Source: Prescottella sp. R16 (GTDB taxonomy: Bacteria; Actinomycetota; Actinomycetes; Mycobacteriales; Mycobacteriaceae). From it: a stretch of DNA of 64,000 nt. Within the stretch, counting starts at the first letter, position 1. The number at the start of each line of letters is the position of its first letter. Of the stretch, positions 1 through 3,365 are shown one piece after another. A program made the position numbers and the translations under genes. The notes beneath the pieces are model-generated. The model ran no database searches. It saw nothing but the letters and a program-made list of their open reading frames with translations, and was not told the DNA's origin. The stretch lies in assembly GCF_030656875.1 (NCBI RefSeq), contig NZ_CP130943.1, forward strand, positions 3,224,001 through 3,288,000, in the 5' to 3' direction.

Positions 1-1
1 G

Positions 2-196
2 GGTTCCCATTTCCGGACGGCCCGCGCACTCAATCTGCCACCGCAGTACCTGATGATCTTCCGGGTACTCCTGGGTTCGGTGGGTATCTGCGCGCAACTC
101 GACGCCGAAGCGCCCTACATGGGCATCCTCAGCGCCTGGCTGCCGGGCTTCACCGACGACGGCACCGTGGCCGAATGTCACACCGGTTCAGTCTGA
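2..196 (+). CDS. AarF/ABC1-family kinase-like protein, C-terminal end (partial)
   Basis: The window opens inside a reading frame that ends with TGA at 194-196 and has no start here, so only the last 64 codons are present. The visible tail contains LPPQYLMIFRVLLGS and ends a little after PYMGILSAWLPGF. This matches what I recall of the C-terminus of actinobacterial ABC1/AarF (UbiB-like) atypical kinases such as Rv3197, the gene that precedes whiB7 in M. tuberculosis. Position next to whiB7 supports the call. The catalytic part lies outside the window, so activity cannot be judged. It converges on whiB7. Confidence 0.7.
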   Translation, partial: GSHFRTARALNLPPQYLMIFRVLLGSVGICAQLDAEAPYMGILSAWLPGFTDDGTVAECHTGSV

Positions 197-232
197 CCGA
201 ACGCATGTGACATTCGGCCACAGCGGGTGCTG

Positions 233-574
233 TCAGGCACACACCAGGGCCGGGTCCTCCTGTGGCACGGGATGTTTCCGGGGCCGGCCGCGGGGCCTCT
301 TGCGGGCGATGACGGCGCCCTGTTCGAGGATCTCGCCGCCCCACACTCCCCACGGTTCCGCACGGTCGAGGGCTGCGGTGAGGCACCGGGTCCGGATCGG
401 GCAGCCCGCGCACAGCTGCTTGGCGCGTTCGAGGTCGGCGGGGGTGTCGGCGAACCACAGGTCGGGGTTGTTCCCGGTGCGGCAGGGCAGTTCCCGGCGT
501 GCCGAGCGGACGGCTCCCAGCCCGTTGGACACGGTGTGGTTCACGTTCTGTACTCGGCATGTCACGGTAGACAC
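233..574 (-). CDS. whiB7: WhiB7, Fe-S redox-sensing transcription factor for intrinsic drug resistance
   Basis: A 113-residue WhiB protein. The four iron-sulfur ligands are C31, C55, C58 and C64 (C-x2-C-x5-C after the first Cys), followed by the GVWGGE turn near residues 76-81 and an AT-hook KRPRGRPRK at 92-100, the feature that separates WhiB7 from other WhiB proteins. In the family the Fe-S protein binds the housekeeping sigma factor and an AT-rich site beside the -35 box to switch on efflux and ribosome-protection genes, and its own gene. I chose the GTG at 574 because GAGGAG lies 5-6 bases upstream; the longer in-frame version to 889 runs through the leader and has no ribosome site. It is preceded by an unusually long leader with an upstream ORF and attenuator. 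Confidence 0.95.
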   Translation of the reverse strand: MSTVTCRVQNVNHTVSNGLGAVRSARRELPCRTGNNPDLWFADTPADLERAKQLCAGCPIRTRCLTAALDRAEPWGVWGGEILEQGAVIARKRPRGRPRKHPVPQEDPALVCA

Positions 575-669
575 GTCTTCTCCTCTGTTTCGTTCTCGGC
601 GGGTGCCGGCTGTCGTGGGTTTCACGAACCGCGGATGGTGGCCGGGAGCGGTGAACGCTCGAAACACGA

Positions 670-762
670 AGGCCACGGTTCGCTGGGTGCGATCCGTGGC
701 CTGGGGAGGACGGGCGGAGTGTCTACCGAACGACGGTTCGGTGGCGGCTCCTGGCCACGGAT
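670..762 (-). promoter_or_regulatory. whiB7 leader attenuator with mutually exclusive hairpins
   Basis: In the direction of whiB7 transcription there are three arms. Arm A (753-762, inside the end of the upstream ORF) and arm C (670-678) share the sequence CCGTGGCC. Arm B (692-702) is complementary to both. A:B pairs over 10 bases and B:C over 9, so only one can form. B:C is followed by TTCGTGTTTC, which looks like a weak intrinsic terminator placed about 100 bases before the whiB7 start. A further 7-bp stem (725-731 with 736-742) covers the stop codon of the upstream ORF. The layout is that of translation-controlled transcription attenuation, as reported for mycobacterial whiB7; folding was done by eye. 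Confidence 0.75.
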
Positions 763-932
763 TCGCGGGCTGCTGCTGCAATGACTGCTGCTGCGCGCGG
801 ACGGAGTGCGTACGGTGCTGCTGCTGCGACGCTCGCGGCGGCCGTGTGGGCCGCGGGGAGGGCGCATGCGAATGCGGGCACCGATGCACGTGCCGCTGCT
901 GCGTTCACCACAGTCGCGTTCCAGTCGTTCAT
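723..932 (-). CDS. whiB7 upstream ORF: Ala-rich 69-residue leader peptide
   Basis: An ATG at 932 follows a strong ribosome site (GGGAGG, 7 bases before the start) and opens a 69-codon frame ending in TAG at 723-725. It lies between the predicted whiB7 promoter and the whiB7 start. The peptide is about 40 percent alanine and begins MNDWNATVVN; roughly 17 of its 27 Ala codons are GCA, unlike the GCC/GCG preference of neighbouring genes. The last codons contain arm A of the attenuator. I infer a sensing role: slowed ribosomes on this frame would free arm A and let whiB7 be transcribed. The peptide itself probably has no other function, though this is not proven. Confidence 0.7.
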   Translation of the reverse strand: MNDWNATVVNAAAARASVPAFACALPAAHTAAASVAAAAPYALRPRAAAVIAAAARESVARSRHRTVVR

Positions 933-1020
933 CGTTGCCACCTCCCTTTCATCTCGTCGTCGACAGGACATGCCGGCCGGGCCGGCTACCGCACACGAGT
1001 TTCCCCGTGGCATGCGATCC

Positions 1021-1057
1021 AGGTTATGGGACCTGATCGGACCGCACAAGTTATTTT
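1021..1057 (-). promoter_or_regulatory. whiB7 promoter with AT-rich WhiB7 element
   Basis: Read on the minus strand: an AT-rich stretch AAAATAA (1051-1057), one base later a -35 hexamer TTGTGC (1044-1049), a 17-base spacer, then a -10 hexamer TAACCT (1021-1026), which fits TANNNT. An AT-rich block immediately upstream of -35 is the known signature of WhiB7-activated promoters, so autoactivation is expected. Transcription would start near 1013, giving a leader of about 440 bases before whiB7. It sits in the gap between uvrD2 (ends 1129) and the upstream ORF (starts 932). Confidence 0.7.
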
Positions 1058-1128
1058 CTACCTGCGGTTTCTCCGCCGCACAGCCGCATCCGTCGCCCGG
1101 CCGCGTGCCGGATACGCACGACGGCAGC

Positions 1129-3261
1129 TCACGGCAGGTCGAGAGTCGCCGCCGTCCGCTCCCCCCGCACAACTGCCAGGACCTCGGCACCGTACTGTTC
1201 GAGCTTCTTCGCACCGATCCCGGAGATCCCGGTCAGGGCCCGCTCGTCCCGGGGCTGTTGTTCGGCGATGGCCTGCAGCGTGTTGTCGGTGAACACCACG
1301 TAGGCGGGAACCTTCGCCTCGCGGGCCTTGTCCCGGCGCCATTCCTTGAGCGCCTCGAACAGTCCGGCGTCGAGGTCCGACGGGCAGTCCCGGCAGCGAC
1401 CGAGGGTGGTCGAGGGGGCGTCCATGAGCGGTTTCCCGCACACCCGGCACCGGGCACGTTTCCGCGTCGACCGTTGCGGCTCCGCAATTTTCGACGCCGG
1501 GGAATCGTCGGGGATCAGGCCGTGCAGGAACCGGGAGCGGCGCCGCGACTTGCGTCCGCCCTCGTTGCGGGCCAGCGCCCACGACAGGGCGAGGTGTTCG
1601 CGGGCCCGGGTGACACCGACGTAGAGGAGGCGTCGCTCCTCCTCGATCCCGGCCTCGTCGCCGGGCGAGGTGGAGTCGCCGAGCACGTGCGCGATGGGCA
1701 GCGTGCCCTCGGTGAGCCCGACGAGGAACACCGCGTCCCATTCGAGGCCCTTCGCGGCGTGCAGCGACGCGAGCGTCACACCCTGCACGACGGGGGGATG
1801 CCGGGCCTCGGAGCGGGCGGCGAGTTCGGCGAGCAGCCCGCCGAGCGTCAGGTACTGGTCGTGGCCCAGCAGTTCCTCGGTGAGCGCGACGAGCGCGGTC
1901 AGCGAGGCCCACCGTTCCCGGGCCTGGGTGCCGGCCGGTTCCTCGTCGCCGAGGCCGAGCGGCGCCAGGACGGCCCGCACGAGCGTCACCAGGTTCTCGC
2001 CGGTGTCGGCACCGTCGGGGAGGTCGTCGCGGGCGGCGGCGCTGCGCAGCGCGGTGATCGCCTGCCGCACCTCCTGCCGGGTGAAGAAGCCCTCGCCGCC
2101 GCGCACCTGGTACGGGATACCGGCCTCGGTGAGCGCCTGCTCGTGCACCTCGGACTGGGCGTTGATGCGGTACAGGACCGCGATCTCGGCGGGGTCGACG
2201 CCACGGTCGATCAGTGCCCGGATCTGTTTCGCGACGGCCTTCGCCTCGGCCGGTTCGTCGTCGTACTCGGCGAACGTCGGTTCGGGGCCGGACGGGCGCT
2301 GCCCGATCAGTTTCAGGCGGGTGCCGGCGATGCGGCCGCGAGCGGCCCCGATGACCCGGTTGGCGAGCGACACCACCTCGGGCGTCGACCGGTAGTCGCG
2401 TTCGAGCCGGACGACGGAGGCGTCCGGGAAGCGCCGTGAGAAGTCGAGCAGATATTTCGGGGTGGCACCGGTGAACGAGTAGATGGTCTGGTTGGCGTCG
2501 CCGACGACGGTGAGGTCGTCGCGGTCCCCGAGCCACGCGTCGAGGACCCGCTGCTGCAGCGGCGTCACGTCCTGGTATTCGTCGACGACGAAGCAGCGGT
2601 AGCGGTCCCGGAACTCCTCGGCGACCGCCGGATGGTTCTCGAGGGACGCCGCGGTGTGCAGCAGCAGGTCGTCGAAGTCGAGGAGCATGCCGTCCGCACT
2701 GTTCTTCGCCTGCTCGTAGGCGGCGTAGACGGCAGCGACCTTCTCCGCGTCCGCCGGGACGTCGCGGCGGGTGCGGGCCGCGACGGCCGGATAGTCCTCG
2801 GGCGCCACGAGGGAGCCCTTGGCCCATTCGATCTCGCTCGCGAGGTCCCGGATGCTGTCGGTGGCGGTCGGCAGTCCGACCCGGCTCGCGGCCTGACCGA
2901 CGAGCGGGAACTTGCGGTCGAGCAGCCGCCACTCGATGTCCCCGACGACCTGCGGCCAGAAGTACTTGAGTTGACGCATCGACGCGGAGTGGAACGTGCG
3001 GGCCTGCACCTGCGGTCCGCCCCCACCGATCCCCAGCGCACGCAACCGGCCCCGCATCTCCCCCGCCGCGCGGGCGGTGAACGTGACCGCCAGCACCTGT
3101 CCCGCCGACACGTGGCCGTTCGCGACGAGGTGCGCGATGCGCCGGGTGATGGTGCGGGTCTTGCCGGTTCCGGCGCCCGCGAGCACACACACCGGTCCGC
3201 GGGGTGCGAGCACCGCCGCCGACTGTTCCGGATCCAGTCCCTCGTCCTGCCCACCTGACAT
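1129..3261 (-). CDS. uvrD2: ATP-dependent DNA helicase UvrD2
   Basis: A 710-residue superfamily 1 helicase. Walker A GAGTGKT is at 29-35, the Walker B region reads VDEYQD, and further helicase motifs such as [13 protein letters not shown] are clear. Near the C-terminus a four-cysteine cluster (CRVC ... CRDC) precedes an HRDC-like domain ending with [11 protein letters not shown], the domain layout of mycobacterial UvrD2, a 3'-5' helicase. I took the ATG at 3261, which has AGGA about 8 bases upstream; an in-frame ATG three codons earlier and longer starts are possible. It diverges from the mycoredoxin gene and is followed by the whiB7 promoter. Confidence 0.95.
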
Positions 3262-3365
3262 GCGGTCCATCCTGTCAGGCGCCACCGACAGCCGCCCGGT
3301 CGCGTTCGACCGCGATGGGAACATCGATGGGAACATCACAGCCCGGTCGTGGTGTTATTAGGCGC

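Follow-up and report, generated by a model that had tools for sequence, protein, structure and literature searches.

The leader of whiB7 in a 64,000-nucleotide stretch of Prescottella sp. R16 DNA (the window) is probably a ribosome-dependent transcription attenuator of the whiB7/wblC type, with an alanine tract and an Arg-X-Arg motif in its upstream open reading frame (uORF) as possible stall features. The attenuator belongs to a known kind, and its likely inputs are more specific than a preliminary description of the locus had held. Leader anatomy, recurrence among relatives, some covariation of the RNA arms, a codon bias and the positions of both features were observed directly in the sequences compared.

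The genome that carries the window is 4.57 Mb in two contigs. All leader coordinates are window positions on the minus strand, given in promoter-to-whiB7 order. The promoter, as read from the sequence (1057-1021), has an AT-rich element AAAAT (1057-1053), a -35 hexamer TTGTGC (1049-1044), and a -10 hexamer TAACCT (1026-1021). About 82 nt, counted from an assumed transcript start site, precede the uORF; near this presumed start, a small hairpin with a GAAA loop (CACGGG-GAAA-CUCGUG, 994-1009) can be read, which is present with changes in the 14 leaders of the genus (alignment, judged by eye). The uORF (932-723) has an ATG directly downstream of the ribosome site AAAGGGAGGTGG and 69 codons plus stop, of which 27 encode alanine, 17 as GCA. 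Promoter, AT-rich element, ribosome site, and alanine-rich uORF are as the preliminary description had them. Within the uORF lie Arg-Pro-Arg (codons 44 to 46, 795-803), a motif of the +X+ arrest type; the last alanine tracts (codons 47 to 49 and 52 to 55, 768-794), ending at modelled switch codon 54; and arm A (ATCCGTGGCC, 762-753), the antiterminator strand. Hairpin S (742-725), identified by folding and alignment, spans the last six uORF codons and the first base of the stop codon. Arm B (702-689 as the whole terminator strand, 701-692 where it pairs with A) and arm C (683-670) form a terminator-like hairpin by folding (702-670), behind which lies a weak U-tract (669-661).

The downstream gene (574-233, GTG start, 113 aa) is whiB7, with a Whib domain (Pfam Whib, E value 1.1e-14) and a best match in 14/14 genus genomes; RGRPRK in its product resembles an AT-hook. 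Upstream, on the same strand, a UvrD/PcrA-like helicase gene (1129-3339) matched the pcrA and uvrD models below their curated cut-offs, and a related helicase gene adjoins whiB7 in many of the loci compared. Nine bases past the whiB7 stop is a near-perfect palindrome (167-222; fold, -43.7 kcal/mol; z, -8.2), which may be a terminator or a REP-like element. By our count, its 40 matches in the genome represent 21 distinct places, because a palindrome matches on both strands.

Protein matches were found in 14/14 genus, 164/201 family, and 137/158 class genomes, and the best 80 matches were used for named loci. Of 198 loci, 161 supplied distinct leaders; the rest were second copies (11), lacked a usable match to whiB7 (14), or were duplicates (12). 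Three leaders of the window's genus have their last 400 bases identical to those of named loci (Rhodococcus spongiicola, R. hoagii, and Prescottella agglutinans). Groups are computed genus numbers (g1 is the window's genus), to which named loci were assigned manually, judged by the organism's name and the resemblance of the uORF; "Pseudonocardiales+" is our own label for 26 loci, including some MAGs and other families.

Terminator and antiterminator share strand B, and antiterminator strand A sits inside the uORF, as indicated by shuffles, folding, and covariation. The A/B/C score is 59, whereas none of 200 dinucleotide shuffles of the leader end exceeded 47, bearing out the earlier proposal that B pairs with either A or C. 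The limits then given for A (753-762) stand; B, formerly 692-702, and C, formerly 670-678, are redrawn as above. The B..C fold has -25.0 kcal/mol (z, -5.4), the A..B fold has -34.2 kcal/mol (z, -3.8), and the score lay above all 30 shuffles in 89/161 leaders. Chance hairpins without any attenuator are a very improbable explanation. They would fit a consensus scan of positions 150 to 1140 that returned no sigma-70-like and no terminator-like site and a search of Rfam that returned no match within positions 1 to 3000; against them stand the shuffles, the recurrence, and, as described below, the covariation and the terminator core. The tail past arm C (TTCGTGTTTC, from 670) makes a poor U-tract behind a strong hairpin, which, like the lack of a consensus terminator, counts against the attenuator. 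A recognisable terminator core occurs in 163/181 leaders, and in 160 of these 163 it is either A-T (117; CCACGG/CCGTGG) or G-C (43; CCGCGG/CCGCGG), with 3 of other form. The G-C cores come from outside the window's family in 41 cases and from Mycobacterium rows in 2.

Once C is complete, equilibrium folding keeps A:B at or below 0.06 and B:C near 0.9 wherever the ribosome stands, and constrained folds prefer B:C (-45.8 versus -36.3). Equilibrium folding was rejected as a switch model because B:C always wins, and folding just before C synthesis was used instead. The switch must therefore be kinetic: the earlier rule that a stall turns whiB7 on and fluent translation turns it off agrees with the attenuator layout and with some arm covariation, but it can hold only kinetically. 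By eye, the terminators of the genus retain an A.A mismatch involving a base that pairs in A:B; this would favour the antiterminator. We also considered whether GCCACGGG, at the 5' end, might be a fourth arm that binds arm A in the manner of a trp-type 1:2 hairpin. This helix was the best one in 10/14 genus leaders but was set aside: in only 2/14 did 5 or fewer of 100 shuffles reach it, and the remaining groups did not improve on this.

Covariation was examined in an alignment of 72 leaders from six groups, which is biased towards pairing because leaders were selected by recognisable arms. Cells changed on both sides numbered 17 for A:B (shuffles, 4.6), 35 for B:C (20.4), and 59 for S (26.3), and 0/500 shuffles reached the observed cells changed on both sides, cells paired, or covariation score for any of the three helices. 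The number of pairs with both-sided changes and the number of pair types showed no excess over shuffles (A:B, 1 and 5; B:C, 3 and 6; S, 5 and 16), these counts being reached by 497 and 497, 499 and 458, and 276 and 67 of 500 shuffles, respectively. Sliding the pairings lowered both the cells paired and the score. However, two shifted versions of A:B had more both-sided changes (21 and 27 cells) than A:B itself, and a shifted B:C came near the observed score (0.061 versus 0.069). Folding and covariation over whiB7 leaders, the check suggested in the preliminary description, thus finds that A, B, and C do covary, with support for A:B and B:C resting on few positions because most of their pairs hardly vary.

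The first base of arm A and its B partner were compared in the 80 leaders with that layout (A-T, 18; G-C, 59; other, 3). Every one of the 14 genus leaders has the A-T form, which reappears in g6 (3) and g14 (1), and the same B column also varies with C (C-G, 27; U-A, 17; other, 21). The arm-A core base (T/C) is weakly associated with the B core (70/10 versus 10/8; Fisher P, 0.004) in a comparison that leaves out 65/163 leaders (20 with both forms, 44 with none, and 1 with mismatched B/C).

Hairpin S, a covarying stop-codon hairpin that the preliminary description lacked, is the most variable of the three helices. Of 19 Mycobacterium rows, 14 have gaps in its 5' columns and the remaining 5 do not form it. 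Hairpin S accounts in part for the conservation of the uORF end, where Arg precedes the stop, and could serve to pause polymerase or to compact the RNA until an arriving ribosome melts it. Past arm A, the uORF end (723-752) is Arg-rich (RSRHR...R) in the window's genus and in Nocardia; [RK]x[RK] occurs past arm A in 14/14 genus and 8/8 Nocardia leaders and in 1/23 from Mycobacterium, in which this end is short. The Arg-rich end might hold a ribosome over arm A.

For the switch model, RNA downstream of a stalled ribosome was folded just before C is made, with a 13-nt lead. The modelled probability of A:B is 0.94 to 0.98 for stalls at codons 1 to 53, 0.80 at codon 54, 0.18 at codon 55, and 0 from codon 56, and a lead of 11 or 15 nt shifts this edge by about one codon. 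In the model, the end of the alanine tract coincides with the last stall position that still allows A:B, and 25/27 alanine codons lie at or before codon 54. Modelled switch codons were compared in 97 leaders; A:B was weak in another 32, A fell outside the uORF end in 28, and 4 never switched on. A first anchor for arm A, which picked the wrong codon pair in 6/14 genus leaders, was dropped, and other anchors were used for switch and motif counts. The modelled switch codon is alanine in g1 (13/14), Mycobacterium (15/19), g27 (11/11), g21 (6/6), and g6 (9/13); the counts are 4/12 in g23 and 0/10 in Pseudonocardiales+. A ribosome at the stop codon would leave arm A uncovered here (27 nt between), unlike in many Mycobacterium leaders, which is a point against the attenuator model.

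The alanine codons are also chosen unusually. GCA accounts for 200/347 alanine codons in the 14 genus uORFs versus 34/505 in the neighbouring helicase gene, and for 79/112 of the isolated alanine codons of these uORFs; the window background, from 27 long open reading frames taken as genes, is 115/1613. This bias (P < 0.001 versus the neighbouring gene) is present in nine of the ten non-Mycobacterium family groups with at least four leaders and is absent from g20 (9/54 versus 28/104), the two-leader group g24, Mycobacterium (21/522), and Pseudonocardiales+ (16/224). GCA shows the strongest enrichment of any codon in six of eight groups tested (g1, g23, g21, g27, g6, and g22, which is Nocardia). 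Among 52 tRNA matches in the genome, anticodons UGC, CGC, and GGC are each represented by one tRNA-Ala, and decoding of GCA requires UGC. Drain of tRNA-Ala-UGC through wobble reading of GCG might make GCA sensitive. Codon bias in attenuators, explained by selective charging, is described in the part of PMC1183508 available to us.

Two other readings bear on the codons. Enrichment is not confined to GCA: in the genus it extends to the minor codons AGG, AGC, ACT, and ACA, and in other groups to several more, so relaxed codon use contributes. This agrees with a generic attenuator in which any uORF stall counts, with alanine content, GCA, and the basic motif arising secondarily from relaxed coding and base composition, as does the response of whiB7 to many drugs and to the loss of many amino acids. 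We consider such an attenuator unlikely, since other fourfold codons of the same genus uORFs end in A in just 39/337 cases, and the frame and codons of the basic motif (below) argue the same way. Still less likely is that GCA is chosen at the RNA level, keeping the uORF unstructured and arm A available with no tRNA sensing. A third-position A in place of G or C would weaken pairing, and the tract adjoins arm A, but the same 39/337 indicates that other codons keep their third-position G or C, and Mycobacterium achieves the same with GCC and GCG.

The second feature just upstream of the modelled switch is a basic motif, [RK]x[RK], named as the main ketolide arrest site and one macrolide arrest site in the available part of PMC8298421. 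In windows chosen after the sequences had been seen, and in leaders that are related and non-independent, as the counts must be read, the motif ends 4 to 11 codons before arm A in 83/138 leaders (expected from residue shuffles, 9.0; a further 20 leaders taken from outside the family do not enter) and 0 to 8 codons upstream of the modelled switch codon in 66/82 (5.3 expected from residue shuffles). It lies between the modelled switch codon and arm A in 1/82. By group, the 4-to-11 window holds it in Mycobacterium (23/26), g27 (12/12), g6 (12/15), g1 (9/14), and Nocardia (7/8), with 0/5 in g30 and 2/23 (1.7 expected) in Pseudonocardiales+. The window's own Arg-Pro-Arg ends 8 codons before the modelled switch codon, at the edge, and 12 before arm A, so that it is counted in the former window and uncounted in the latter.

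Frame controls used 80 leaders from ten chosen groups. The motif is in frame in 68/80, and moving the counting window 12, 20, or 28 codons upstream reduced this to 3/79, 0/75, and 1/58, a drop at odds with the generic attenuator. The other frames of the same stretch also hold it (15 and 34/80 forward; 14, 52, and 22/80 reverse), so base composition contributes, which is a point for that same reading. The motif's Arg and Lys codons differ from group to group (AAG CAT CGC, CGT CTG CGC, and CGT CAC CGC), a difference that counts against the generic attenuator and points to the peptide. The preliminary description held that the uORF looked unlike a conserved peptide, so that structure rather than peptide might be conserved. 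Against this, related leaders repeatedly place the alanine tract at the modelled switch codon, code it with GCA, and carry a basic motif nearby; codon choice and peptide features are thus conserved as well, and the structure-only guess finds no support.

Upstream of the uORF, the pattern AAA[AT]-2..6-TTG-18..22-TA...T is present in 151/161 leaders. A stricter version had 3 matches in the entire own genome (reversed control, 0), and a looser one had 4 (control, 1). When WhiB7 targets were sought through this pattern, the two further sites inspected (L257 and L258) headed no listed open reading frame; an alanine feedback loop is unsupported here because the search revealed no WhiB7 targets. A second WhiB7-like gene is found in 8/14 genus genomes (L023 to L030) and is absent from the window's own genome. 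Its upstream region has no WhiB7 promoter pattern in 8/8 cases and no attenuator core in 7/8 (one loose match, L023), and shares a GATGA-TT ... GTC-GTA motif in 8/8 (by eye), perhaps an ECF-sigma promoter.

Ribosome-dependent attenuation of whiB7/wblC is in print (Lee 2022, Burian & Thompson 2018, and Poulton 2024, as represented by papers citing them), as are drug induction of the whiB7 attenuator and alanine starvation. The alanine link, which the preliminary description lacked, is published for mycobacteria, with a link to an alanine enzyme for Mtb, according to the portions of the literature available. The accessible text of PMC12121999 (2025) calls drug stalling in the whiB7 uORF untested; that of PMC13236596 (2026) says that stalling induces whiB7 and presents ribosome occupancy of the Mtb leader. 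Among the papers listed by full-text searches, judged by title and abstract opening, none dealt with GCA or alanine codons of the whiB7 uORF, a negative that does not extend to Lee 2022, Burian & Thompson 2018, and Poulton 2024, any of which may already report the codon bias, the basic motif, or hairpin S.

Like the whiB7/wblC attenuators of Mycobacterium and Streptomyces, this leader has a uORF, a putative terminator, and an antiterminator that shares uORF and terminator sequence, ahead of the same gene, and like the Mycobacterium whiB7 leaders compared, its uORF is alanine rich. Unlike the known examples, its alanine tract is GCA coded and its uORF extends farther past arm A, and unlike most of the 19 aligned Mycobacterium rows, it has a covarying stop-codon hairpin. 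Amino-acid attenuators (trp, his, and leu, PMC1183508; Mtb ilvB1, PMC13236596; both as far as their available text goes) similarly combine regulatory codons, alternative hairpins, and biased synonymous codons, with codons of one amino acid just upstream of the switch; here, however, the controlled gene is a transcription factor and alanine codons span most of the uORF. With macrolide-sensing leader peptides of the ErmDL type (PMC8298421, available part), the leader shares [RK]x[RK] upstream of a switch, in the form Arg-Leu-Arg for 8 of the 12 genus leaders whose 0-to-8 window holds it and Arg-Pro-Arg for the window's own; it differs in that the motif lies about 44 codons into the uORF, beside a terminator, and is a candidate arrest site.

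From these elements we infer how termination and read-through, and the stresses that stall ribosomes at each site, might be connected. RNA polymerase would transcribe the leader with a ribosome translating the uORF behind it. If that ribosome moved freely, it would cover A as B emerges, so that B:C would form and transcription would stop before whiB7; a stall at or before about codon 54 would leave A free to form A:B before C is made, and polymerase would read through. The GCA-rich alanine tract just upstream of the switch point could make stalling sensitive to charged tRNA-Ala-UGC, and the Arg-X-Arg motif, also just upstream, could make it sensitive to macrolides or ketolides. We tentatively propose, at somewhat less than even confidence, that the whiB7 uORF of the window's family is built as a two-input sensor, in which [RK]x[RK] would stop drug-bound ribosomes and the following alanine tract (reading, in Rhodococcus-like bacteria, one tRNA, Ala-UGC, via rare GCA) would respond to charging, both just upstream of one switch point, with the covarying stop-codon hairpin pausing polymerase or joining A and B and so timing the race.

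The site and the signal of ribosome stalling in the whiB7 leader thereby become a codon-level prediction. The leader is the switch behind much intrinsic drug tolerance in actinobacteria, and the prediction is that related bacteria would listen to different tRNAs through the same regulator.
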